A model generated the notes under the pieces. That model did no database searches, was not told where the DNA came from, and was given only the letters and a program-made list of their open reading frames with translations. Shown piece by piece: positions 4,608-62,617 of a stretch of DNA of 64,000 nt. The stretch covers positions 62,001 to 126,000 of the forward strand of contig JAJEDJ010000050.1 of the NCBI GenBank assembly GCA_022821545.1, in the 5' to 3' direction. A program made the position numbers and the translations under genes. Source of the DNA: Caldilineaceae bacterium. Lineage in GTDB: Bacteria; Chloroflexota; Anaerolineae; Caldilineales; Caldilineaceae. Every line of letters begins with the position of its first letter. Positions within the stretch are counted from its first letter, which is position 1.

Positions 4608-5303
4608 ATGTGGAAAGTCGATCTTCATTCTCACACGATTTTCAGTAAGGATTGCCTCACACGGACCGAGGACACGATTGCCCGCGCGCGCCGCATCGGC
4701 CTGGATAAGCTGGCGATCACGGAACACGACAATCTGGCCGGCGCCTTAAGAGCAAAGGAGCTTGCACCTGATTTGATCATTGTGGGTGAGGAGATAATGA
4801 CAACTCACGGTGAACTGATCGCCTACTTTGTCAAGGAGGAGGTGCCGCGCGGCCTGTCGCCGCAGGAGACGATTCGCCGGTTGCGCGAACAGGGCGCCGT
4901 AATTGCCATTCCCCATCCGCTGGACTCGTTGCGGAATTCGGCAATGGGGTTGTCCTGTGCATTGGAGGTGATCGACCTGGTGGACGCCCTGGAGGTAAGA
5001 AACGCCCGTTGCGTTCGGCCGGAGGACAACCTCGCGGCCATGTCGCTGGCGCAGGAGCGCGGGCTCTTGACCACGGCGGGCAGCGATGCACATATTCCGT
5101 TCGAATTGGGGCGCTGCTACACGGAGATGCCGGAGTTTGAAGACGATGCGGAGTCGTTTATTGACGCGTTGCAGTATGCCAAGCCAATGGGGAAGGAGTC
5201 CCCCTTCTGGCCGCATCTGATGAGCACCTGGGCAAAGTGGCGCAAACGAATCCGGCCGGTGCCGTACGGCGGTGTGCTCCACTCTTACGGCAGGAGTAAG
5301 TAG
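4608..5303 (+). CDS. PHP domain phosphoesterase
   Basis: A 231-residue metal-dependent hydrolase of the PHP family (polymerase and histidinol phosphatase). The N-terminal VDLHSHTIFSKDC carries the HxH motif, ITEHDN the next ligand, GEEIMTTHGELIAYF the Glu and His, IPHPLDS another His, and TAGSDAHIPFELG the final Asp-Ala-His. Length fits stand-alone PHP proteins such as RNase AM or nucleoside bisphosphate phosphatase types. GGAAAGAG just before the ATG supports this start. It probably shares a transcript with the upstream membrane protein and converges on the TPR gene. The substrate is unknown. Confidence 0.82.
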   Translation: MWKVDLHSHTIFSKDCLTRTEDTIARARRIGLDKLAITEHDNLAGALRAKELAPDLIIVGEEIMTTHGELIAYFVKEEVPRGLSPQETIRRLREQGAVIAIPHPLDSLRNSAMGLSCALEVIDLVDALEVRNARCVRPEDNLAAMSLAQERGLLTTAGSDAHIPFELGRCYTEMPEFEDDAESFIDALQYAKPMGKESPFWPHLMSTWAKWRKRIRPVPYGGVLHSYGRSK

Positions 5304-5373
5304 CGTTCACCAAGCGGCGGCTTACCCTGATCCGGGGGACGGCAAGCCAGGTTCCCGGCGATACTCGCTCCCC

Positions 5374-6738
5374 CTATGCCGCGCTCGACTCCTCTTTTTC
5401 GTCTCTTGGAGCGTGGAGGAAGGCCTCGACCTCTGTGAAGACCTCTGGCGGGAGCAGATCTCTGAAGAAATACCAGTTGAAGACGGAAAGCCTGTGATCC
5501 TGAAAAGAGGCTCGCAGAAGTTCAACGGCATGGCGAAGGTTGCGGTGCAGGTGATCTCTGTTGCCGCTGATACCCCATCCTAACGCTGCCAACCCCAAAA
5601 TGAGCGGGTCCCGCCGCGTTTCCTGTTGCCCGAGGAGATTCAGGGCCACATGCAGCCCTTGACGAACCTCGTCGGATTGAATGCCGCTCCCCTGGCCTTC
5701 GCCGTCGTCCGTACTGTCAGTCTCCGGCGCCGTCGCGCCTTCGCTATCGGACAGAGGGGGCGCTTGAACGGCGCCCAGGTAATAGTGGGCCAGGATCCAG
5801 TCGCCGACTGATGAGAGAGTAACTTCCTCAAGGGGGACCTGGGCCACACGCCGCCATTCAATCTCCGCGCCCCGCTGATCACCGCTATAGTAGCCGGACA
5901 GGCCCCGCCAGAATCCCTGAGAGACGGGAGAGTTCTCGCGATTGAGCGCTCGCTGAGCCAGGCGGGCCTGACCATTCAGAACGAGCGGGCGATAGAGCAG
6001 ATGCCAGCGGTCGCTATAGGCATCCGACACTCTGGCAGCCATGCCGAAAGCATCGGCGGCCTCCTGCCAGCCGTGCCTCTCCAACGCCACGCAGCTGCGC
6101 AAAAAGTGAATGAGCCCGAACTGGACGGATACCTGGTTCGTTTCGCTCTCGCTGTCGAGACGCTCCTTGACCTGAATCTGCACATCTACATCTTCGACGA
6201 GGGTCTCCGATAGGCCCTGAGAACGGAACAGTTTCTGCAGCAAATGTAGCAATGACTGCCGGACTTCATCTGCCTCGCTGATTTGATTGTCGTCGATCAA
6301 AATGGAGAAAAGCAACCAGCGCAGGTCCACGTCAAATGGCAGGTTCGCTGATTCGGCGCGTACGATATCGGCCGCCTCTTCATGGCGGCCTTGCCACCAA
6401 TAGGCGCGTGCCTGGTTCTCCCGCCATAAGGACTTGCCGTCCTCGCTCAAAACTTTTAAGACGCCTTCATCAATGGCCGCCATGTCGTCCAAACGGTTGC
6501 GCCGGGCGTAGTGGGATTGCAGGCCGAGGACACTCTTGTCCAAGATGTGTTGCAGCCGTTGTTCCCGGGCAGATAGTCGCGACTCCGGCAGGGCGGCCAA
6601 TCGCTCTATCAGGAAACCGAATTTGTTCAGGGCCTCGTCGTTGCCCTGCCGTGCAAGGGCCACTGCCTCAGAGTGCAAGGCCTCCCAGGAGCCCTTTAGT
6701 GCGGCAGCGCTGCCTGAACCGCGCGTGTCAGTCGTCAT
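5374..6738 (-). CDS. TPR-like helical repeat protein of unknown function
   Basis: A 454-residue soluble protein made of helix pairs, with segments such as RAYWWQGRHEEAADIVR, WHLLYRPLVLNGQARLAQRAL and GFWRGLSGYYSGDQRGAEIEWRRVA that resemble degenerate tetratricopeptide units. No enzyme motif is seen. Residues about 340-365 form an acidic, low-complexity linker, and the C-terminus is charged (RDEKEESSAA). It lies 84 bases downstream of the chelatase I/D gene on the same strand, so co-transcription is likely and it may be an adaptor for that complex. It ends 70 bases from the convergent PHP gene without an obvious terminator. Confidence 0.7.
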   Translation of the reverse strand: MTTDTRGSGSAAALKGSWEALHSEAVALARQGNDEALNKFGFLIERLAALPESRLSAREQRLQHILDKSVLGLQSHYARRNRLDDMAAIDEGVLKVLSEDGKSLWRENQARAYWWQGRHEEAADIVRAESANLPFDVDLRWLLFSILIDDNQISEADEVRQSLLHLLQKLFRSQGLSETLVEDVDVQIQVKERLDSESETNQVSVQFGLIHFLRSCVALERHGWQEAADAFGMAARVSDAYSDRWHLLYRPLVLNGQARLAQRALNRENSPVSQGFWRGLSGYYSGDQRGAEIEWRRVAQVPLEEVTLSSVGDWILAHYYLGAVQAPPLSDSEGATAPETDSTDDGEGQGSGIQSDEVRQGLHVALNLLGQQETRRDPLILGLAALGWGISGNRDHLHRNLRHAVELLRASFQDHRLSVFNWYFFRDLLPPEVFTEVEAFLHAPRDEKEESSAA

Positions 6739-50649: not shown

Positions 50650-52908
<2,259 letters not shown>

Positions 52909-52984
52909 AGTTGTCTCCTTCACTATCGGTAGAGTCTCTTGGTCTCTTTCGACATCTTTTCCTATTGGTCCCCTATTGCCCACA

Positions 52985-53014
52985 ATTGTAGGGCAGCAGC
53001 GCTTGATCTGTCAA
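52985..53014 (-). promoter_or_regulatory. sigma70-type promoter of the reductase operon
   Basis: On the minus strand TTGACA (53014-53009), 18 bases, TACAAT (52990-52985), about 75 bases before the GTG start. The -35 is a perfect consensus. Confidence 0.7.
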
Positions 53015-53095
53015 GCCGGTCATAATGGGACGTGCATCCCTGCCGCACCCTCCTCGCCCTCTCTCTTCTCTCTCCTCTCCGCTCTCTCCTCCCCT

Positions 53096-53124
53096 TTGGG
53101 CGTGGTCTGGGAATAACGTATACT
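53096..53124 (+). promoter_or_regulatory. promoter of the M16 peptidase gene
   Basis: TTGGGC (53096-53101), 17 bases, TATACT (53119-53124), leaving a leader of about 185 bases. Confidence 0.6.
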
Positions 53125-53154
53125 CTTTTGGGCGCACGCTCTTTTGGGCGCACG
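53123..53154 (+). repeat. 16-base tandem repeat just downstream of the -10 box
   Basis: CTCTTTTGGGCGCACG occurs twice in a row (53123-53138, 53139-53154). The TTTGGGCG core occurs a third time at 53095-53102, where it forms the -35 box. Confidence 0.85.
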
Positions 53155-53315
53155 CTCTCTTTGCGCCTTCAGACGATGCCCAAAATTCCCGCCGGGATTA
53201 TTCCTGCCTGTTGCGAAATCTTCGCCTAATGGCAACAGAAATCTCATCTCAGCGTACTAAGCTGGTAGGAGCGGCGCGAATTTCACCCAAGCGAAAGAGA
53301 TTCAAGGAGTAAACA

Positions 53316-56300
53316 ATGACCAATTCATGCAGTGCCCAGCCCGGCGCGTCCATACGCGGTAAGGCGTACTGGACGGAGACCGGGCCAAAGCCGAGAAAAG
53401 TAAAGCTGCTGGTCGGACTACTGCTGCTGACTGCACTGCTCGCCAGTGCCTGCCAGGGAATTACACCTCCTTCGGCCAGTCCGGCCGCGACGACCGATTC
53501 GAGCGCTGAGCAGGCGGAGGCCCCGGCAGAGGAGACCGAACAGGCGCAGGCCTTTCTGGACCTTGACAGCGAAACATTGGACATGAACGCGCCGATTGCC
53601 CTGGACCCGAGCATACGCAAGGCGCAATTGGAAAACGGCCTGACCTACTACATTCGGCACAATACCGAGCCGGCGAACCGGGCTACACTGATGCTGGTGA
53701 TCAACGCCGGCTCCCTGCAGGAGGACGAGGACCAGCTGGGGTTGGCCCACTTTGTCGAGCACATGATGTTCAACGGCACCGAGCGCTTTCCCAAGCAGGC
53801 GTTGATCGACTATTTCGAGACCGTCGGCATGTCGTTCGGGCCGGACGTGAACGCCTATACATCTTTCGACGAAACAGTCTATTTCCTGGAATTCCCCACC
53901 GATGACGAGGAGATTATCGGCACGACTTTCCAGGTGGCGGAGGACTGGGCCAGCCGCGCCGCGATTTCCGATGAAGAAGTGGAAGGCGAACGCGGCGTCA
54001 TTCTGGAAGAGGAACGCCTGCGGGACCAGAACGCAAGCGGCAGGTTGAACAAACAGCTGTTCCCGCTGCTGCTGGGTGAGTCCCGTTACACTGACCGGAT
54101 GCCGATCGGTGACATGGAGATCGTCCGGAACACGCCGGGCGAAACGCTGCGCCGCTTTTACCATGACTGGTACAGGCCCGATCTCATGGCGGTCATTGTC
54201 GTGGGCGACATCGACGTCGACGACGTAGAGGCGAGAATCAAAGAGCATTTCGGGCCGCTGACCGCGCCGGATACCGTCCGGCCCAGGGACACCTATTCCC
54301 TTCCCGACTACGATGACACAGGCTATCTGATTCTCACCGATCCCGAGTTTCCCGTCACGATAGCCCAGATCATCTACCGGCAGGCCGCCCCGGCTCTGGA
54401 CTCGGCCGCCGTCTATCGAGACCGCCTGATCGGCAATCTCTTCTACAAGATGCTCAATTTCCGGCTCGACGACCTCACCAGGGAAGCGGACTCACCGTTC
54501 CTTGGCGCTTTCGTGAGCGAGGGCCAGCTGGTACGCGGCAACAACTACCAGGTGGTCGGCGTGCAGGTGCGCCAGGGCGAGGCCCTTTCCAGCCTGGACG
54601 CCGCCCTTACGGAGGTTGAGCGCGTACGCCGTTACGGCTTTACGGCCGCCGAAGTGGAGCGGGCCAAGTCGGAGATCCTGAACACATACGAACGGCTCTA
54701 CAACGATCGCAAAAACCTGCGCAACCACTCTCTTGCCAGCGAATACAGCCGCAACTACCTGGAGAACGAGACAGTCCCCGGCATTGAAGTGGAGTTCAAA
54801 CTGGTGGACCGTCTTCTGCAAGGGATCAGCCGCGACGATGTCAACCAGAGGGCGGAACTCTATGTCGGCGGCAGTAACCGCTCAGTCTTCGTCGTCGGGC
54901 CGGAGCGGGACGCCGACAGCCTGCCCAACGAGGATGAGCTGGCCGCCGTGATTTCAGACCTTCAGACCAAGCAGGTAGACCCCTACCAGGACATCGAGGC
55001 GGTCACGGCCCTGCTGACCGAGATCCCGGAACCGGTGGAGATCATCTCCCGTCACACGGACGCGACATTCGACATTACCGACCTGACGCTGGCAAACGGC
55101 GCCAGAGTCATTCTCAAACCGACGACCTTCAAGGAAGAGGAGATCCTCTTCAGCGCAACCAGCCCCGGAGGCTCCTCCCTCGTCAGCGATGAAGACTATC
55201 CAGAAGCCGACTTCATCGACAGTATAGTCAGCCAGAGCGCGGTCGGCGACGTGAGTTACGCCGCGCTGCAGAGGCTTCTGGCCGACAAGTCGGTGTCGGT
55301 CGCCCCGTTTATCGGCGAGCTGGAAGAAGGGTTCCACGGCCATTCCGGCCAGGAATTCATCGAGACCCTGTTTCAGCTGGTCTACCTGTACGGCACGCAG
55401 CCAAATGCAGATGACGACGCCTTCGCTACCCTCAAGGACCAGTACACAGAGTCTCTGCGCAACCGCGAACTGGACCCGCGCAGCGCCTGGACGGACGCCT
55501 ATATCCAAGCCCGCTACGGCGATTCGATTCGGCGCAATGTCCCCTCGCTGGAGGTAATCGATTCGCTCGATCTGGAGCGGGCCTTTGCCATTTACCAGGA
55601 GCGTTTTGCCGACTTCAGCGACTTTACCTTCATCTTTGTGGGCAACTTCGATCTCGAGCAGATGGTCGACTGGTCGCAGAGATACCTGGGCAATCTGCCC
55701 TCCCTGGACCGCGCCGAAACCTGGTTGGACGTAGCTCCGGATCCGCCCGCGGGCGTAATCGAGGTTCCTGTCTATAAAGGGCAGGACGAGCAGAGCCTGA
55801 CGACATTACTCTTCACGGGACCCGGCGAAGATTCACTGGACAATCGACTCCACCTGCGCATGCTGGAGATGATTCTCGATATCCTCATGCGTGAAGAGTT
55901 GCGGGAGGAATTGGGCGGTGTCTATGCCTACAGCGCCACTTCTTCGATGGAGCCGGACCCGGACAGCCTGTACCGAATCTCCCTCACTTTTGGCAGTGAC
56001 CCGGCTCGGGTGGAGGAGTTGGTAGATGCCCTGTTTGGGCTGATTTCAGATGTGCAGGCGGATGGCCCCAGAGAAGATCTGCTGGAAAAAGCCAGGGCCC
56101 AGATCGTTCGCCAGCGCGAGGAACAGCTGGAACAGAACAACTACTGGTTGCGTGTCCTGGAGTATTGGGCTGCCGAGGATGATGTCGACCTGACTAACTT
56201 CGTCGACCTGGAGGTGGTGGAGAGCCGCACCGACGCCGTTACTGCTGCGGAAGTTCAGGCTTTGGCAGTAGATTTCCTGCCGCTGGACCGCTATATTCTG

Positions 56301-56333
56301 GTGTCGCTGTATCCCGAGGACTTTGAGGAGTAG
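53316..56333 (+). CDS. M16 (insulinase-family) zinc metallopeptidase, lipoprotein
   Basis: A 1005-residue two-half M16 peptidase. The inverted zinc motif HFVEH is at residues 145-149 and the downstream Glu lies in EEVEGERGVILEEER. The second half (from about 545) has the peptidase fold without the zinc motif, as in pitrilysin/PqqL-type proteases. A hydrophobic signal (30-45) ends in a lipobox LASAC with Cys46, so it is exported and lipid-anchored; a low-complexity Ala/Glu stretch (50-80) follows. AAGGAG precedes ATG 53316. The 28 residues before the signal are longer than usual. Monocistronic, with a strong terminator behind it. Confidence 0.9.
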   Translation: MTNSCSAQPGASIRGKAYWTETGPKPRKVKLLVGLLLLTALLASACQGITPPSASPAATTDSSAEQAEAPAEETEQAQAFLDLDSETLDMNAPIALDPSIRKAQLENGLTYYIRHNTEPANRATLMLVINAGSLQEDEDQLGLAHFVEHMMFNGTERFPKQALIDYFETVGMSFGPDVNAYTSFDETVYFLEFPTDDEEIIGTTFQVAEDWASRAAISDEEVEGERGVILEEERLRDQNASGRLNKQLFPLLLGESRYTDRMPIGDMEIVRNTPGETLRRFYHDWYRPDLMAVIVVGDIDVDDVEARIKEHFGPLTAPDTVRPRDTYSLPDYDDTGYLILTDPEFPVTIAQIIYRQAAPALDSAAVYRDRLIGNLFYKMLNFRLDDLTREADSPFLGAFVSEGQLVRGNNYQVVGVQVRQGEALSSLDAALTEVERVRRYGFTAAEVERAKSEILNTYERLYNDRKNLRNHSLASEYSRNYLENETVPGIEVEFKLVDRLLQGISRDDVNQRAELYVGGSNRSVFVVGPERDADSLPNEDELAAVISDLQTKQVDPYQDIEAVTALLTEIPEPVEIISRHTDATFDITDLTLANGARVILKPTTFKEEEILFSATSPGGSSLVSDEDYPEADFIDSIVSQSAVGDVSYAALQRLLADKSVSVAPFIGELEEGFHGHSGQEFIETLFQLVYLYGTQPNADDDAFATLKDQYTESLRNRELDPRSAWTDAYIQARYGDSIRRNVPSLEVIDSLDLERAFAIYQERFADFSDFTFIFVGNFDLEQMVDWSQRYLGNLPSLDRAETWLDVAPDPPAGVIEVPVYKGQDEQSLTTLLFTGPGEDSLDNRLHLRMLEMILDILMREELREELGGVYAYSATSSMEPDPDSLYRISLTFGSDPARVEELVDALFGLISDVQADGPREDLLEKARAQIVRQREEQLEQNNYWLRVLEYWAAEDDVDLTNFVDLEVVESRTDAVTAAEVQALAVDFLPLDRYILVSLYPEDFEE

Positions 56334-56353
56334 GCAAGGCCGGGAAATAAACG

Positions 56354-56394
56354 AAAGAGCGGGCAGTTGAAGAATAACTGCCCGCTCTTTTCTT
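56354..56394. terminator. bidirectional intrinsic terminator
   Basis: A perfect 15-base-pair stem, AAAGAGCGGGCAGTT / AACTGCCCGCTCTTT (56354-56368, 56376-56390), with a seven-base loop and a T-rich tail (TCTTTC). The A-rich opposite end lets it serve the convergent minus-strand gene too. Confidence 0.9.
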
Positions 56395-56418
56395 TCTGAA
56401 ATCAGATCGGAAGCTGTC

Positions 56419-56616
56419 TCAGTGACCGTAGAAATGTTCTGTCGGATCGATAACGGAGTCCTGCCAGTCCAGGTAGCGGGCCGCCTCTTCCAGGGTGGCT
56501 GCCTTGCCGTCGTCGACCAGTTGCTGCAGCGTTGCCTTCTGTGTTTCAGTCAGCTGGTCGGCCTGTAAAGCCAGCAGCCAGCTGCTGAACTCCTCCTTTT
56601 CGTCTATCCGAGCCAT
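56419..56616 (-). CDS. small acidic protein of unknown function
   Basis: A 65-residue predicted-helical protein (SSWLLALQADQLTETQKATLQQL, then EEAARYLDWQDSVI). It has no signal or metal motif. GGAGACAG precedes the ATG. It lies 36 bases downstream of the 103-residue gene on the same strand and ends at the shared terminator. The composition and the coding-like start support a real gene. Confidence 0.6.
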   Translation of the reverse strand: MARIDEKEEFSSWLLALQADQLTETQKATLQQLVDDGKAATLEEAARYLDWQDSVIDPTEHFYGH

Positions 56617-56652
56617 CGAACTGTCTCCTCTCTCGCCGGTCCAAGCGTCGCG

Positions 56653-56964
56653 TCAAATCGTAAAGGCGACGTCGCTGCCATCTTCAAAATAGAGCTGTAA
56701 GTGGAGAGCGTTGAGCCTGAAATGGCTCATGCCCAGGCAAGCCCGTTCTGCCTGCGTGCGCTCTGCAGAAGCCTTCGCCCAGCGGCTGTCACGGCCTTTG
56801 TGTTCCAGCTGCAAATAACTTCCGTCCTCAAAGAAGAGAACGGCCTGGTTGAACTCCGCGTTGGCCACGTAACGGACGGCATGGGCGGCCGCGCTTTGCG
56901 CCTGGGAAAACGAATTCAGTTCGATCTGGAGAGAACTGTCGGCGCCGGTTGTTCCTCTTTCCAT
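56653..56964 (-). CDS. hypothetical protein, 103 residues
   Basis: A small protein with no assigned family. After MERGTTGADSSLQIELNSF come a beta-rich stretch, FNQAVLFFEDGSYLQLEHKG, and a near-repeat LHLQLYFEDGSDVAFTI near the end; the two EDGS segments suggest an internal duplication. AGGA lies five bases before ATG 56964. It is probably co-transcribed with the 65-residue gene. Confidence 0.55.
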   Translation of the reverse strand: MERGTTGADSSLQIELNSFSQAQSAAAHAVRYVANAEFNQAVLFFEDGSYLQLEHKGRDSRWAKASAERTQAERACLGMSHFRLNALHLQLYFEDGSDVAFTI

Positions 56965-57043
56965 GCGGCATCCTTTGCGCCGGCCTGAGCAGTGGCTTTT
57001 CGCCATGGGGGCCGGCGCCATTGGGCTTTCTTGCTTTGGCCCA

Positions 57044-57069
57044 TGGCAAGACTATATGGCAAGACTATA
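57044..57069 (+). repeat. 13-base tandem repeat in a divergent promoter region
   Basis: TGGCAAGACTATA is repeated exactly twice in a row (57044-57056, 57057-57069). Each copy ends in TATA and may duplicate a -10 element for the gene at 57200. Confidence 0.8.
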
Positions 57070-57199
57070 CAGCAGCGGCCGCGATCATGCAAGGGATGCC
57101 TGCCGGTGCGCCGCTGCAGATTTTCTGGACGGCTTCGTGTGTGCTACCATGGCAGCAATACCGAACGGGCGGATCAGATCCTTCTAATGGAGTTGTGCT

Positions 57200-57541
57200 A
57201 TGAAAAAGCTGCTTAAGTTTCTCTTCTTCGTCGGCTTTGCCGCAGGCGTTGTGTATGTCATAAAGCAGGTCCTGGGAGGAGAGCAGTCGGAGGGCGCAGG
57301 CAGCGGTGTTCTGCCGGAAACGCCGGTGACGCCCTTGGAAGACGCGCCGCTGGGCGGCGAAATAAGTCCGCAGCTGCTGGATATACTGGTTGACCCTGAG
57401 GATAAGGGAAAGCTTCAGCTGATGGACGACAACAGATTTCTGCTTAATCCCCGCAATGGTTACCGCTATCCGATTCGCAACGGCATCCCGGTGATGCTTA
57501 TCGAAGAGGGTAAGAAGTACCAGGACACGAGTCTCATTTGA
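57200..57541 (+). CDS. Trm112-like (UPF0434) domain protein with membrane anchor
   Basis: A 113-residue protein. An N-terminal hydrophobic helix (residues 5-26) precedes an Ala/Pro/Glu linker and a Trm112p-like domain: ISPQLLDILVDPEDKGKLQLM, LLNPRNGYRYPIRNGIPVMLIEEG. The zinc cysteines found in some Trm112 proteins are absent, as in UPF0434. A membrane anchor is unusual for this small domain, which is normally cytoplasmic. Its stop overlaps the end of the convergent histidine kinase gene by 8 bases. Confidence 0.78.
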   Translation: MKKLLKFLFFVGFAAGVVYVIKQVLGGEQSEGAGSGVLPETPVTPLEDAPLGGEISPQLLDILVDPEDKGKLQLMDDNRFLLNPRNGYRYPIRNGIPVMLIEEGKKYQDTSLI

Positions 57542-59261
57542 GAGAATCAGGGACCGGTGCGTCCGCCTGGCTGCCTGCCGGTTCTTTGGGGATCGCCAGC
57601 GTGAAGGTTGCGCCGTCTCCGCTTTCCACGCCTACTTTGCCGCTGTGCGCTTCCACTGCGCTCTTGACTATCGCAAGACCCAGTCCGGCTCCTGGAACCC
57701 GTTCGCTCAATTCACCGCGATAGAAGCGCTCGAAGATCAGTTCCCGGTCTGCCTGCTGTATTCCCGGCCCCGTGTCGGCAACTGACAGCAGGATCGCATC
57801 TTCATCTTCGGTTGCGGCAAGTTCTACGGCGCCGCCGGGCGGCGTGAATTTGAGCGCGTTGTCCAGCAGATTCGCCAGTGCCATCCCCAGGCTCGCCCTG
57901 TCACAACAGATCCTGTCGAGGCCGTCCTCCATGGACAGGCGCAGTGCGATCTGCTTCGCCGCGGCCGTCGACCGAAACGGGGCCAGCGCTTCTTCCAGCA
58001 GCCCCTCGAGGTCGTGGCGTGAGATATCCAGGGCCGCCACCCCGCCTTCAAGACGCGACAGGTCCAGCAGGTGTCCGGTAATCCACTGCAGCCGCTCCAG
58101 CTGCCGCTGGCTTTCACCAAGGAACTCGGCGCGCGTTTCCGGTTTGCCTCCGGCCTGACCCTGCAGGATCTCGATGAACTGGCGCAGTGCTGTCAGCGGG
58201 GTACGCAGTTCGTGTGAGGCGTCGGCAATGAAACGGCGCAGCGCATCGCGTTCCGCGGCCAGGTCCGCGAAAGTGGCTTGAAGCCTTGCTGCCATGCGGT
58301 TGAAGCGTCGCGAGAGGTCGCCGATCTCTCCAACCGATTCCGGAGCCCGCACGGCCAGGTCCCCCTCCTCCATCTGCTGCGTGGCGCTTGCCAGTGCCAT
58401 CAAGGGGGCTGTGAGCGTCCGGCTCATCAGAAATCCCAGCAGCACGGCCACGAGGATGGCGCCCAGCCCTGCCACCATCAGGGATCGACGGATTGCGAGC
58501 AGCGGCTCAGCAAAAAAAGGGTACCTGTTTGTCATCTGCACGTAGCCAACGACCTGGTCGTCCTGGTGGACCGGAACAGTGACTTGAGGCCCTTCCGAAG
58601 GGGGAGGAACTGCCTCTGGCGCATAGCCGAAAACGATCCGCCAGATTCGGGGCGACGTCCGGTTATCGGGTGTTCCGGCGCCACTCTGCGCCGCGTCCGT
58701 GTCGTCGGCGGAAGCGCCTGCAGGATCAACGATGACTAACCTGTCGCCCATAAAGCCAGGCCGCCTCTCGAGGGACAGTGCGGCCCCCTCTTCAATCAGA
58801 GGGTCGCTCTCATCGACGTCCATTGCGACCATCCCCCGCGGGTGACCTGGGCCTGAAACGACGATCACAGGGCTGATCAGCCCCTTCTGCCAGTCCTCTT
58901 TGCCGCTGCGGGATAGTTCACTGAGCAGGCGCATTACTGCCTGGCTCGAATCCAGTGGCGTCAGGCGCATTTGGGAATAGGCGACCGGCCGCCTGTCCCT
59001 GTCGAGAATTCTCAGTTCGGTGTTGGTGAGAAAACCGGACGTTATCGCCAGTTGTTGCAGACGGGGGCCCTGGTTTGGCCGTGCCAGGAGTGGCCGCGCC
59101 ATGCGGGCTACCGCCTCGGCATTGAGAATTAGCGTCTCATATTCACGGGCGGCCATGTACCTGGTGAGGAGACTGAGGGCAACGACCCCAATCAACAGGA
59201 TCGTCAGCAGAGTCAAAGCGGTATAGCTGATAATCAGACGCCAGCGAATCGAGTGCAACAT
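57534..59261 (-). CDS. two-component sensor histidine kinase
   Basis: A 575-residue kinase. Transmembrane helices at about 12-34 and 262-285 flank an extracytoplasmic sensor of some 225 residues; then HAMP, the dimerisation block with phospho-acceptor His (ADASHELRTPLTALRQF) and the ATPase domain (LANLLDNALKFTPPGG, VADTGPGI, GAGLGLAIV). It is the last gene of the response regulator - PDZ - kinase operon, separated from the PDZ gene by a 207-base region with a 14-base-pair hairpin. Confidence 0.9.
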   Translation of the reverse strand: MLHSIRWRLIISYTALTLLTILLIGVVALSLLTRYMAAREYETLILNAEAVARMARPLLARPNQGPRLQQLAITSGFLTNTELRILDRDRRPVAYSQMRLTPLDSSQAVMRLLSELSRSGKEDWQKGLISPVIVVSGPGHPRGMVAMDVDESDPLIEEGAALSLERRPGFMGDRLVIVDPAGASADDTDAAQSGAGTPDNRTSPRIWRIVFGYAPEAVPPPSEGPQVTVPVHQDDQVVGYVQMTNRYPFFAEPLLAIRRSLMVAGLGAILVAVLLGFLMSRTLTAPLMALASATQQMEEGDLAVRAPESVGEIGDLSRRFNRMAARLQATFADLAAERDALRRFIADASHELRTPLTALRQFIEILQGQAGGKPETRAEFLGESQRQLERLQWITGHLLDLSRLEGGVAALDISRHDLEGLLEEALAPFRSTAAAKQIALRLSMEDGLDRICCDRASLGMALANLLDNALKFTPPGGAVELAATEDEDAILLSVADTGPGIQQADRELIFERFYRGELSERVPGAGLGLAIVKSAVEAHSGKVGVESGDGATFTLAIPKEPAGSQADAPVPDSLK

Positions 59262-59340
59262 TCGCGTCCCTCTACGCCTTCAAAGGACGCGCCGTGAACT
59301 CTCGACGCCTCCTTTGCGGCAATGGTGCGGCTTGAGGATG

Positions 59341-59376
59341 CCCACTCTGCGGTCAACCGCTCGACCGCAGAGTGGG
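59341..59376 (-). other. 14-base-pair perfect hairpin between PDZ and kinase genes
   Basis: CCCACTCTGCGGTC / GACCGCAGAGTGGG (59341-59354, 59363-59376) around an eight-base loop. No T run follows in either direction, so it is not a standard terminator; it may stabilise, process or attenuate the operon mRNA. Confidence 0.75.
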
Positions 59377-59468
59377 GTGAGTTATGGCTGCGCCGGCCTC
59401 CGGGGCGGTAGCACGCCCTTGTGCTGTCCCGTCTCGCCGGCGCTGGCCGCAATCGGGTTGGCAGTGGT

Positions 59469-60755
59469 CTAGGAGCTGCTCTGCGACTCCTGGGCGCTCT
59501 GCTGCTCTTCGCCGCTCTGCTGCTCTTCGCCGCTCTGTTGCTCTTTGTAAGTCTCGTCCTCCATCTCCTTCATCTGCATACGGAGGGATTCCAGCGGCAT
59601 GATGGCGACACCCAGGTAGGCTTTGTCGTCGTCGTCGGGGTGTGCCCCAAGGGTCACTGTTGCCGCAACTGTTTCACCGTCGCGATTCACTGTGATGCTC
59701 ACCTCGTCGCCTGGGCTGTAACTTGCCAGGGCTTCCACCAAATCCCCCATGTTGGAGATTTCGGTTTCGCCAACTGCGGTGATTGCATCGCCTCTCTGGA
59801 GTTCGGCAGCGGCTGCCGGCCCTTCCTCCTGCACGCCCATCACCAGGGCGCCGTCAGGCACGTCTCCCAAGAAGAAGCGTCCGCCCTGCGGGAACGCGAA
59901 GCCAAAACGGTTGCCGCGTTGCTGGCGGCCATTGTGATCAGTGCCGTGCGCGTGGGGCCGGAACTGCTCCGCCGGCGCAATGCGAACGCCGAAGAACGCC
60001 TTTTCTCCGTCATCGGGATGTGAGCCGAGGGTCACGTTCAGCTCAACCGTCTCGCCGTCCCGATCAACCGTCAACGCGACGTCGTCTCCGGGGCTGAGAG
60101 CGGCGGCAGCGCCGGCCAGGTCGCCCATTCCCATAATCTCGGTCTCGCCCACGGAAGTAATTGTGTCGCCGGCCATCAGTCCTGCCGTCGCGGCCGGGCT
60201 CTCTTCCAATACCTCCATTACGACAGCGCCCTCACCAACATCTTTGGGGCTTCCGTCCATGCCCTTGAACTGCTCCATCGAGGGCATACGACCGAAGCTG
60301 CGCATTGCAGCGAATCGCCCGCGCCGGGTCTTCATCCCGCGGATACCCGGCCCATCCGGCGCCACGCCAAGCAGCGGGTAACCGTCGACGTCGGCCAGGG
60401 TGGCGGTCAGCGTAAGCGCCTCGTCCCCGCGCTTGACCGTAAGTTCCAGAATGTCGCCCGGGTCCTGCATCAGGATAACGTGCTTCAGCTCGGCTGCCGT
60501 ATTGACCATGTCACCGTCGATTGCCAGCAGGATGTCGCCGCGCATCAGGCCGGCCTCGGAAGCCGGCGTCTCCTCTCCAACGGCTACGATCAGAACGCCG
60601 GGCTCCGGTTTGACGCGTTCTGTCATTGACTGAGCCGATGCGGTCCCTCCAAAGGCCAGTAGTCCAAGCAGGGCCGCCGAGATCACGAGCCAAAACCTTC
60701 GATTGGCCGCTCTTTGCCATGTCCGCTCCCTGGTCGTTAGTCTGGGTTGTCTCAT
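59469..60755 (-). CDS. exported protein with three PDZ domains
   Basis: A 428-residue protein with a signal peptide (core LVISAALLGLLAFGGTASAQ, about residues 23-42). Three PDZ domains follow (near 45-140, 165-265, 285-395), each with ETPASEAGLMRGDILLAI- or EESPAATAGLMAGDTITSV-like loops. No protease domain is present, so it is not a DegP or CtpA enzyme. The tail has repeats of EEQQSG. Placed between a response regulator and a kinase, it may act as a periplasmic or extracellular binding subunit for signal sensing, which is an inference. Confidence 0.8.
   Translation of the reverse strand: MRQPRLTTRERTWQRAANRRFWLVISAALLGLLAFGGTASAQSMTERVKPEPGVLIVAVGEETPASEAGLMRGDILLAIDGDMVNTAAELKHVILMQDPGDILELTVKRGDEALTLTATLADVDGYPLLGVAPDGPGIRGMKTRRGRFAAMRSFGRMPSMEQFKGMDGSPKDVGEGAVVMEVLEESPAATAGLMAGDTITSVGETEIMGMGDLAGAAAALSPGDDVALTVDRDGETVELNVTLGSHPDDGEKAFFGVRIAPAEQFRPHAHGTDHNGRQQRGNRFGFAFPQGGRFFLGDVPDGALVMGVQEEGPAAAAELQRGDAITAVGETEISNMGDLVEALASYSPGDEVSITVNRDGETVAATVTLGAHPDDDDKAYLGVAIMPLESLRMQMKEMEDETYKEQQSGEEQQSGEEQQSAQESQSSS
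59496..59545 (-). repeat. 18-base tandem repeats encoding EEQQSG
   Basis: Two full 18-base units (59496-59513, 59514-59531) and a partial third (to 59545) encode the hexapeptide EEQQSG near the end of the PDZ protein. Confidence 0.85.
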
Positions 60756-60851
60756 CTCTGGTTCCTTTCAATGTGCTTTGCATCGCGAGTCCATCACTGA
60801 CTACGCTCTCAGTGTAGTGGATGGAATTGAAAGGACGGTTGCCTTTGGATT

Positions 60852-60876
60852 AAGTTTTCACAACAAATGAAAACTT
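60852..60876. promoter_or_regulatory. AT-rich palindrome between response regulator and PDZ genes
   Basis: AAGTTTTCA / TGAAAACTT (60852-60860, 60868-60876) around a seven-base spacer, in an otherwise GC-rich region. It could be an operator for the upstream regulator or a weak hairpin. Confidence 0.5.
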
Positions 60877-60903
60877 TGCCCAGGCATGATTTCCCCGCGG
60901 ATG

Positions 60904-61605
60904 TCAGCCCTGGAACTTGTAACCAAACCCGCGTACGGTCACAAGTCTTGCGGGATTGGCCGCATCGCGTTCAATCTTCTGGCGCAGATGACGGATATGA
61001 ACGTCCACGGTACGGTCGCTGTTGACGTCGCTTTCGTAGCCCCACACGGCCTCCACAAGACCGCTGCGGCTGACCGGCACATTGGGCCTGGCCGACAGGT
61101 AGCGGAGCAGCCGGAATTCGGTAGGCGTAAGTTCGACGGCTTCCCCGTCCAGCCGTACTTCCAACCGCGTCACATCGATTTCGAGACCCTCAAAGCGTTG
61201 AACCTGCTCTGACGACGGAGCCGCCAGGTCACCGTAGGCCCGGCGCAACAGGGCCCGGATCCGGGATATCAGCTCTCGCAGCCCATAGGGCTTGACCATG
61301 TAATCGTCTGCTCCCAGCTCCAGGCCGAGCACTTTGTCGAGTTCCTCATCCCTCGCAGTCAACATCAGGATAGGTTGGCGGTGGTTTTGGGAACGGAGCG
61401 CACGGCAGACGTCATAGCCGCTCATATCCGGCAGGCGCAGGTCCAGCGTAATCAGATCGGGCTGTTGCCTTCCCGTAATCTCAATGGCCTGCGCCCCCGT
61501 CTTGGCCCAGTAGACATCAAACCCTTCCTCCTTCAGGGCGTACTCCAACCCCCTGGCAACGGCCGGTTCGTCCTCCACAATCAATACCCGTTCCCGTTTC
61601 ATCAT
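60904..61605 (-). CDS. OmpR-type response regulator
   Basis: A 233-residue regulator. The receiver has the acidic pair (E11, D12), phospho-acceptor D55 in LITLDLRLPDMSGYD, LTARDEELD and the Lys in MVKPYGL. The C-terminal winged helix (VRLDGEAVELTPTEFRLLRYL, VWGYESDVNSDRTVDVHIRHLRQKIE, TVRGFGYKFQG) binds DNA. It is the first gene of the operon; the cognate kinase is two genes downstream. Confidence 0.93.
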   Translation of the reverse strand: MMKRERVLIVEDEPAVARGLEYALKEEGFDVYWAKTGAQAIEITGRQQPDLITLDLRLPDMSGYDVCRALRSQNHRQPILMLTARDEELDKVLGLELGADDYMVKPYGLRELISRIRALLRRAYGDLAAPSSEQVQRFEGLEIDVTRLEVRLDGEAVELTPTEFRLLRYLSARPNVPVSRSGLVEAVWGYESDVNSDRTVDVHIRHLRQKIERDAANPARLVTVRGFGYKFQG

Positions 61606-61910
61606 CCGATCTCCTGGGCTTGCCGGTGTTTCTGTCTACTGCTTCCACACCCTGTTTCGCAAAAATGGCGCGCTTTCATTGGACTGGAATTTTGGGCTCC
61701 TGCCCGCTGTCGGTGTACAATGAGCCGCTGTAGTATACCTATCAAATGCAGGCTTTGCTACAAGGGAAGTGGACGGTTCGCCCCCAACGCGCGCGCAGAC
61801 CGTCACGGTTCGCAGCAGTTCAGGCCCCCGACCTTCGTGACCTTTTTCAAATGGACCGGCCGGCCGAACTACCTTGAGCAGCCGCCGAAGTTGAGAAGGA
61901 AAAGTAAGCA
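61606..61910. other. divergent region between response regulator and rplI
   Basis: About 305 bases with no gene. It holds the rplI promoter and an unassigned TAGTATACC element near 61731-61739. Nothing coding is evident. Confidence 0.6.
61692..61721 (+). promoter_or_regulatory. candidate rplI promoter
   Basis: TTGGGC (61692-61697), 18 bases, TACAAT (61716-61721), leaving a leader of about 180 bases, long enough for autogenous control. Confidence 0.5.
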
Positions 61911-62486
61911 ATGGCTCGCATGAAAATCTTGTTGACGGAGGATGTTCCCTCCCTGGGTCTTGCCGGTGAAGTCCACACTGTGGCCAGAGGCTATGCCCGT
62001 AACTACCTTATCCCGCGCAGGGAAGCAATCATTGCGACCAGGGGCGCCTTGAAACAGGCCGAGGATATCCGTCAGGCTGCCGTACGGAAGCGGGCGCAAG
62101 AGCGGTCGAACGCCGATGCCCAGGCAGAGGTGCTGAACGGCCAGCAGCTGCTCTTTAACGTCAGGGCGGGTGAAAACGACCGCCTTTACGGTTCGATTAC
62201 CACTTCGGACATCGCAGAAAGTCTTGAAGAAACGGTCGAATTCGAAGTGGACAGAAGGCGAATCGTCTTGAACCAGCCAATTCGGGAGCTGGGCCTTTAT
62301 GACGTGACGATGCGGCTGATGACTGAAGTAGAGGCTACATTTGCGGTTGCGGTTGTGCGGGAGGGCGAAGGTTGGGCCGACGCCGAACAGAGGGAACGGG
62401 ACCGGGAAGCCGCTGCCCAGGCGGAGGCCGAAGAGGAGGCAGTCGCCGAGCTGGTGGATGATGCCTCCGCGGCTGAAGAAGAATAG
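61911..62486 (+). CDS. rplI: 50S ribosomal protein L9
   Basis: Large-subunit protein L9, 191 residues. The N-terminal domain begins [36 protein letters not shown], joined by the long helix to the C-terminal domain ending in VAVVREG. An acidic, Ala/Glu-rich tail of about 35 residues makes it longer than the usual 148-150. The gene stands alone with its own promoter and terminator, not in the common rpsF-ssb-rpsR-rplI cluster. Confidence 0.94.
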
Positions 62487-62545
62487 GGCCCGGAGACAGC
62501 CTGACCTGAACGGTCTCTCCTCGACAGAGAGTTCAGCATAATTGG

Positions 62546-62574
62546 CGGACAGGGCGTACGCCCTGTCCGTTTTT
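62546..62574 (+). terminator. intrinsic terminator of rplI
   Basis: A perfect 10-base-pair stem, CGGACAGGGC / GCCCTGTCCG, with a GTAC loop (62546-62569), followed by T5 and more T residues. Confidence 0.9.
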
Positions 62575-62583
62575 CTTTTCGTC

Positions 62584-62617
62584 GGGGCTGGGGACCGAGT
62601 CCCCAACACGCAGCCCC
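62584..62617 (+). other. GC-rich hairpin downstream of the rplI terminator
   Basis: Outer stem GGGGCTG / CAGCCCC (62584-62590, 62611-62617) encloses GGGAC-CGA-GTCCC (62591-62603), leaving a seven-base bulge. There is no T run; the role is unknown. Confidence 0.5.

Follow-up and report, generated by a model that had tools for sequence, protein, structure and literature searches.

What is the role of a protease-free, three-PDZ protein that is encoded between the two genes of a signalling system? The question arises from a stretch of 64,000 nucleotides (nt) of Caldilineaceae DNA (GenBank assembly GCA_022821545.1, contig JAJEDJ010000050.1, positions 62,001 to 126,000; hereafter called the window), where a response regulator (RR), such a PDZ protein, and a histidine kinase (HK) are encoded one after the other. 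As an answer, we propose, with about even confidence, that the three would make up a three-component envelope-homeostasis system, wherein the PDZ protein is the regulator-driven output and, as an accessory protein, also provides a negative feedback like that of CpxP. Comparison of sequences supports this proposal through the conserved RR-PDZ-HK set, a candidate regulatory box with a -10-like element before the PDZ gene, the scarcity of other such sites, and, in the window's genus, a second promoter block ahead of the gene of an M16 peptidase. The three genes, in window coordinates, are as follows:

60904..61605, minus strand: OmpR-family response regulator, 233 amino acids (Pfam Response_reg 2.6e-30, Trans_reg_C 5.2e-27)
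59469..60755, minus strand: PDZ protein, 428 amino acids, three PDZ domains, no protease, probably exported (Pfam, NCBIfam, AlphaFold, Foldseek, VIA-align)
57534..59261, minus strand: membrane histidine kinase, 575 amino acids (Pfam HAMP, HisKA, and HATPase_c; alignment; model)

The open reading frames (ORFs) were confirmed at these coordinates, and along the minus strand the RR gene is followed by the PDZ gene after 148 nt, and the latter by the HK gene after 207 nt. A conserved promoter-like block occupies the first gap and a covarying hairpin the second. Given both elements, "operon", as an initial annotation of the window had called the locus, is too simple a label; the order of genes that it described stands. 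Below, G numbers denote the genomes searched (G000 being that of the window, a 4.87 Mb assembly) and L numbers denote loci.

That annotation had also read the middle gene as a secreted three-PDZ protein without a protease domain, and here the ORFs, Pfam, and AlphaFold all agree, with export being probable. The parts of the protein are:

60633..60755, minus strand: signal peptide region with A-S-A (residues 39-41) at its end (sequence reading; model helix 17-35; A41 conservation)
60357..60599, minus strand: PDZ1, residues about 53-133, LLGV end (model, fold matches; G130 in 46/46 sequences)
59973..60233, minus strand: PDZ2, residues about 175-261, FFGV end (model, fold matches; G256 in 46/46 sequences)
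59595..59855, minus strand: PDZ3, residues about 301-387, YLGV end (model, fold matches; G382 in 44/46 sequences)

The N-terminal hydrophobic segment, as read from the sequence, ends at A39-S40-A41, and A41 is conserved at 90% or more among 46 homologues. By Pfam, the protein matches PDZ in three stretches and has no match to a peptidase family, and the AlphaFold model shows three PDZ domains, mostly with pLDDT above 90, joined by disordered linkers. In the fold comparison (Foldseek and VIA-align), PDZ1 to PDZ3 match the PDZ2 domain of RseP or MucP over the full length, including the final LGV strand, and among the best matches is MucP PDZ2 (7xft) with model residues 53-132 (Z of 14.5, rmsd of 1.1, 79 residues). 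In contrast, the matches with the PDZ domains of DegS and HtrA end about ten residues earlier, though going by the VIA-align rows HtrA-type relatives remain compatible with the comparison. With no protease present and with this difference in alignment, the likeness to DegS-type sensing that the initial annotation had drawn is a weak one. Moreover, the best fold matches include RseP and MucP PDZ2 structures with peptides bound or fused. Because the glycines of the LGV loop, a motif which we take to be the PDZ carboxylate loop, are nearly invariant, peptide binding by the protein is plausible.

The number of PDZ domains per protein varies from one to three across the loci. PDZ3 is absent or degenerate in the aligned L071 and L073 proteins, and in G134 (L242 4542-5171) and G087 (L248 4876-5532) the protein encoded immediately before a related kinase has one PDZ domain only and a hydrophobic segment at its N-terminus. 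Two Caldilineaceae metagenome bins have PDZ proteins that are 81% and 78% identical to that of the window. Membership in several known families was considered and ruled out: CpxP/Spy (LTXXQ), with Pfam at E<=0.01 giving PDZ families and weak cross-hits only; HtrA/DegS/DegP, with no Pfam protease and a best NCBIfam HtrA model at 153.3 of 416.2 bits; and RseP or site-2 proteases, with TIGR00054 at 82.4 of 147.55 bits and no Pfam peptidase, PDZ3 being the best stretch in both of these last cases. A literature search on permuted GRASP-type PDZ domains found nothing.

The same gene order recurs in relatives. The PDZ protein (E<=1e-20) occurs in 27 of the 46 genomes from the window's family, including all 17 of its genus, and in 24 of these 27 a single contig carries RR, PDZ, and HK arranged and oriented as in the window. 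As to the others, the triad of G009 is split over two contigs in a manner compatible with this order, and in G028 and G030 the PDZ-HK pair was found without an RR beside it. A profile search of 298 genomes of the class detected the PDZ protein in 58, these being 11 family genomes already covered, 40 genomes whose loci were inspected (one of them, G034, from the window's family), G079, in which the triad is present, and six weak partial matches (G046, G084, G115, G152, G247, and G310) outside the inspected loci. RR-PDZ-HK was observed in 24 of the 40 class loci, across eight families besides that of the window; three of these have the RR 0.7-2.1 kb off, three have the kinase cut at a contig end, and one has broken frames. 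At eight more loci PDZ-HK is without a nearby RR (four at or near contig ends), and at one RR-PDZ is cut by a contig end. Conserved over both family and class, the RR-PDZ-HK order is more than chance. Six of 301 genomes in a phylum sample match, and just one of them, a weak match, is from outside the class.

We then consider the gap between the RR and PDZ genes, which includes the following element:

60811..60867, minus strand: conserved promoter block, with box TTTGTTGTGAAAACTTAAT (60849-60867), GGCAACC, CTTTCAA, and -10-like TACACT (60811-60816) (alignments, position weight matrix (PWM), genome searches)

When this gap was aligned for the 17 genomes of the genus, the block (TTTATTGCGAAACCTTAAT, GGCAACC, CTTTCAA, TACACT) stood out from the remainder, with 23 of 62 columns being invariant. 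The box has a TGTTGCGAAACCTTAAC-like consensus and lies upstream of the PDZ gene at a near-fixed distance from the -10-like element; its tandem half-sites are arranged as in binding sites of the OmpR family. Across the class it also precedes the PDZ gene, and there the spacing to the -10-like hexamer is constant within 1 nt (24 aligned rows, with L071, L073, L151, and L171 left out). Scored with a leave-one-family-out PWM that was seeded with the genus consensus, and judged by 200 mononucleotide shuffles per region, the box reaches p<=0.005 in 48 of the 65 regions upstream of PDZ (outside the genus, in 31 of 48), with a median of 20.0 bits. The 150 nt that precede HK (58 loci; median -2.4, maximum 12.4 bits) and those that precede RR (52 loci; median 0.1, maximum 7.9 bits) showed no box, the PDZ regions having been scored up to 350 nt. 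Since the box is found upstream of PDZ and none was seen before RR or HK, this suggests that making the PDZ protein is a main output of the signalling system. The initial annotation had set independent transcription of the PDZ gene against its own model; here, the gene does seem to have its own promoter, but it is one that would tie PDZ to the system.

Both scorers of the box start from a consensus spotted by eye, the box having been found without de novo discovery, and a Gibbs search for motifs in 400 nt of upstream sequence was discarded, as it settled on the RR coding sequence. The 65 regions are those left from 68 PDZ loci after three were dropped for a cut 5' end or broken frames (L063, L169, and L178). 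A few PDZ starts were badly guessed, and L142, with a box at the chosen start, was counted as a miss. In a sigma-70 scan no site resembled a promoter, and the terminators reported do not include the hairpin that lies between PDZ and HK.

How many other genes might share the box was addressed by searches of whole genomes. For the consensus, the window's own genome has one exact match, none with one mismatch, and 21 with two, as compared with 35 in all for a reversed control. A class-wide model was applied to 28 chosen genomes; in 25 of them its top match is clearly the PDZ promoter and in one more this promoter is tied for first place, whereas G145 (PDZ lost) and G295 are without a PDZ-promoter match; eight other matches were obtained, the best with an E-value of 0.044. 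Because most of the PDZ promoters were used in building this model, its informative part is the absence of strong other matches. Moreover, a degenerate-pattern search of 249 class genomes gave 23 exact matches, five of them PDZ promoters, against about 30 in the reversed control, and thus no enrichment, with the window's own box lying outside this pattern.

Individual sites were also noticed elsewhere. In G127, a trypsin-like HtrA follows an exact pattern match (L214 1685-3016), and the PDZ gene of that genome stands alone. In two genomes of one family the box precedes the gene of a 183-185-residue protein with a hydrophobic N-terminus (L216 1608-2162 and L217 848-1396), which is a possible further target; its L217 copy has no Pfam match. 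At L221, an exact pattern match comes before a PstS-like phosphate-binding protein, while at L281 (G018:C19:165145-165182) a strong box of 23.8 bits lies near a contig end, with its would-be gene cut off.

Within the genus, a model built from the 17 PDZ promoters identified a second site besides these, and in the window this corresponds to:

53207..53263, plus strand: second promoter-block copy, before the M16 peptidase gene (genus model match G000:C39:115209-115263, E 0.028; PWM)
53316..56333, plus strand: M16 metallopeptidase, 1005 amino acids, with lipobox LASAC and HFVEH motif by sequence reading (Pfam Peptidase_M16 1.3e-28, Peptidase_M16_C 6.5e-38)

Here, the second block scores 17.1 bits (p=0.005; p=0.02 in a wider rerun) and is 109 nt from the ATG. 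Such second sites adjoin the M16 gene, immediately upstream, in 12 of the 13 loci examined. In 16 of the 17 genus genomes the best PWM match lies 108-109 nt from the ATG, and the box attains p<=0.05 in 13 (14 in the wider rerun). Outside the genus, none of 12 assessable loci reached p<=0.05 when a wider region was scanned (L316 being too short), and likewise none of 13 in a narrower scan, for which some start codons were badly placed.

As for the signalling proteins, HK has two membrane helices, a standard core, and a sensor that varies among homologues. Its layout comprises a transmembrane (TM) segment at about 5-35, an extracytoplasmic sensor at about 36-250, another TM segment at about 251-275, HAMP (278-329), HisKA (340-407), and HATPase (454-560), with the TM limits judged from model helices and sequence. 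Because the model is weak at mid-sensor (99 to 222) and the fold matches are mainly with the kinase core, the sensor is assigned to no family. RR stays under the NCBIfam cut-offs for all 25 models among the matches listed. Four known systems were rejected as identities, both partners being below equivalog cut-offs in each: WalRK (YycFG), with WalK at 207.7 of 725 and YycF at 212.8 of 340 bits; MtrAB, with MtrB at 192 of 450 and MtrA at 215.6 of 300 bits; PhoBR, with PhoB at 213.9 of 296.2 and PhoR at 166.4 of 334.2 bits; and CreBC, with CreB at 219.8 of 273 and CreC at 176.6 of 356 bits. The window's genome encodes a second two-component system on contig C12 in the order RR-HK-HtrA (L076, G000:C12:33000-43000), with the trypsin-like HtrA at 4926-6398. 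At this locus, the stretch that separates the kinase gene from that of HtrA has, on its opposite strand, a site with at most two mismatches from the box.

The gap between the PDZ and HK genes contains an element of its own:

59341..59376, minus strand: 14-bp RNA hairpin, no U-run (RNAalifold)

This 14-pair hairpin is conserved across 16 sequences of the genus. Six of its 14 pairs have both sides changed, which is equalled by 3 of 500 shuffles, and its covariation score of 0.185 is reached by none of the 500; further pair types are ordinary in number, being matched by 136 of 500 shuffles.

The linkage between PDZ and HK implied by the initial annotation is borne out by their co-occurrence, in addition to their adjacency at the eight class loci without a nearby RR. 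The family sample contains 28 full-length HK orthologues, in the same 28 of 46 genomes as PDZ (the above 27 and G034). In the class sample, strong HK matches (E<=1e-150) occur in 47 genomes, PDZ in 58, and both in 40 (Fisher p = 2e-28), where kinases adjacent to PDZ genes were the source of the HK profiles, inflating co-occurrence, and the p-value ignores kinship. There are also 16 weaker HK matches, seven in PDZ genomes and nine elsewhere. The seven genomes with a strong HK and no PDZ profile match were inspected. In G082, G134, and G210 a PDZ gene does precede the kinase (single-PDZ in G134), and none was found in G090. In G055 (L239) and G225 (L241) the PDZ gene is reduced to a 53-residue N-terminal membrane-anchor stump, with box and kinase intact. 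In G145 (L244, 5380-5660) there is no PDZ gene between RR and HK, and a box of 18.6 bits remains, which might now drive the kinase directly. Because G055, G225, and G145 retain the kinase without an intact PDZ, the PDZ protein is not obligate for it. At L239 and L241, the region from RR to the stump also holds what, judged by eye, seem to be genes for an antitoxin and a PIN-type toxin.

In the proposed three-component system, the extracytoplasmic domain of HK would sense envelope disturbance and lead to phosphorylation of RR, which would bind the box and switch on the PDZ gene, with the HK gene being transcribed by read-through and the hairpin perhaps keeping PDZ in excess over the kinase. In this genus only, RR would also switch on the M16 peptidase. 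Once exported, the PDZ protein would grip damaged exported proteins by their exposed chain ends or strands, acting as a holdase or protease adaptor; when unoccupied, it would damp HK, and misfolded clients would relieve this negative feedback, as for CpxP with CpxA. The damping we infer from PDZ being linked to HK and yet dispensable for its retention, which suits an accessory brake better than a required presenter.

Besides the limits given with the box scores and the co-occurrence, several observations weigh against this proposal. In four of the 40 class loci PDZ is without a nearby RR or HK, and in three others, all of one genus (L173, L175, and L176), the order is RR-HK-PDZ; at these three the kinase is low-scoring and the box not significant. 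Moreover, 17 of the 65 PDZ upstream regions miss p<=0.005, a strong HK is missing from 18 of the PDZ genomes (seven of which have a weak or partial one), and at least three genomes have kept HK but no intact PDZ. A broad regulon is unsupported, because consensus sites are no commoner than controls genome-wide. The M16 box is weak in two genus genomes, where mainly its downstream half is kept, and absent in G020; as no assessable locus of another genus reaches p<=0.05, the link seems confined to the window's genus, the peptidase having joined only there. Furthermore, the genome encodes additional OmpR-family regulators (L076-L078), and the role of RR as an activator acting through the box we infer from linkage.

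Each alternative draws on part of the same evidence. The PDZ protein could be output only, namely an exported chaperone or protease adaptor that makes no contact with the kinase and whose position places HK under the same promoter for autoregulation. A box upstream of PDZ only, the retention of HK after PDZ loss, and a peptidase gene with the same block in the window's genus would all suit this, although PDZ beside HK at the eight loci without a nearby RR (half of these lying close to or at a contig end) and a co-occurrence, albeit profile-biased, that is tighter than expected of a freely movable output gene argue otherwise, and we regard it as possible, if rather unlikely. The model of the initial annotation, in which the PDZ protein would activate the kinase by presenting to it the misfolded or C-terminal peptides that it has caught, DegS-like in logic and without proteolysis, appears doubtful. 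While the PDZ-HK linkage and co-occurrence, the conserved LGV-loop glycines, and the peptide-bound or peptide-fused RseP and MucP PDZ2 domains among the best fold matches are in its favour, a required presenter is contradicted by G055, G225, and G145, in which box and kinase are kept without an intact PDZ, and the logic of its expression points to an output. Least probable, to our mind, is that the box serves some other regulator of the OmpR family, such as one of PhoB type, and that PDZ is controlled independently of its neighbours. Half-sites of this style are common to the OmpR family, and the L221 match before the PstS-like protein fits such a regulator, but the box follows the PDZ-HK locus across families and persists between RR and HK after PDZ loss (L244).

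An extension of the envelope-homeostasis proposal, which we consider quite improbable, is a "split HtrA", wherein the PDZ-only protein would be the detachable substrate-recognition half for a separate M16 lipoprotein under the same regulator, and, when free of clients, the off-switch of the kinase. If so, one protein would act as chaperone, protease adaptor, and stress gauge, and would also be the conserved target of the system across the class. To our knowledge, stress signalling in these organisms is little studied, and the proposal, if true, would give one class of (probably) Chloroflexota an envelope-homeostasis circuit centred on a PDZ protein that lacks a protease. With the promoter block in hand, purified components would suffice for direct tests of regulator, target, and feedback, and the natural PDZ-loss genomes are ready controls for what the accessory protein contributes to the kinase.

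Around the triad, clustering of 1517 neighbouring ORFs from 43 loci revealed no gene that keeps its position over three or more families; one loose cluster (nine ORFs from four families, with varied places and strands) spans at least three. Families f4 and f34 share one gene at about 3 kb, and a Trm112-like gene is found some 3-4 kb downstream of the triad in three genera of the window's family. In the window, the Trm112-like protein (57200-57541, plus strand) has a hydrophobic N-terminal segment and is conserved in the genus, and between its gene and that of M16 is a 122-residue ORF (56653-57021, minus strand) with no Pfam match and with 66-89% identity at the same place in the genus. An Rfam search over 52900-62600 gave no match.

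Among known systems, several bear comparison. The cpxP gene adjoins cpxRA. CpxR-CpxA-CpxP of E. coli is likewise a two-component system with a periplasmic accessory protein, and a 10-fold excess of CpxP over CpxA is reported as needed for switch-off (PMC4985592). Here, however, the accessory is a PDZ protein with no CpxP homology, its gene lies between RR and HK, and inhibition of the kinase is only proposed. HbpS-SenS-SenR of Streptomyces is similar in that a secreted accessory is encoded with kinase and regulator, and HbpS modulates autophosphorylation of the kinase (PMC4991794); unlike the PDZ protein, HbpS is a redox sensor that binds haem and iron, its gene order is another, and no PDZ domain is mentioned in the portion of the source available. 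Envelope two-component systems tied to a PDZ-bearing quality-control protein include CssRS-HtrA and the YycFG locus with htrA3/HtrC (PMC12826053), and MprAB-PepD is reportedly another such case. In contrast with the window's protein, HtrA has a trypsin-like domain, and here the PDZ gene separates RR from HK. With RseP and MucP the PDZ domains are alike, down to the LGV strand at the domain end, but there is no M50 protease here and the membrane part is the N-terminal signal segment only. A literature search for the RR-PDZ-HK arrangement found no description among the papers listed, subscription journals being mostly uncovered. With its accessory gene linked to RR and HK, the system may belong, by function, to the three-component class of CpxP and HbpS type. 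Its ingredients, namely kinase accessory proteins (CpxP, HbpS) and HtrA linked to two-component systems, are known, and, as far as the literature covered goes, the combination RR-PDZ-HK would be new.

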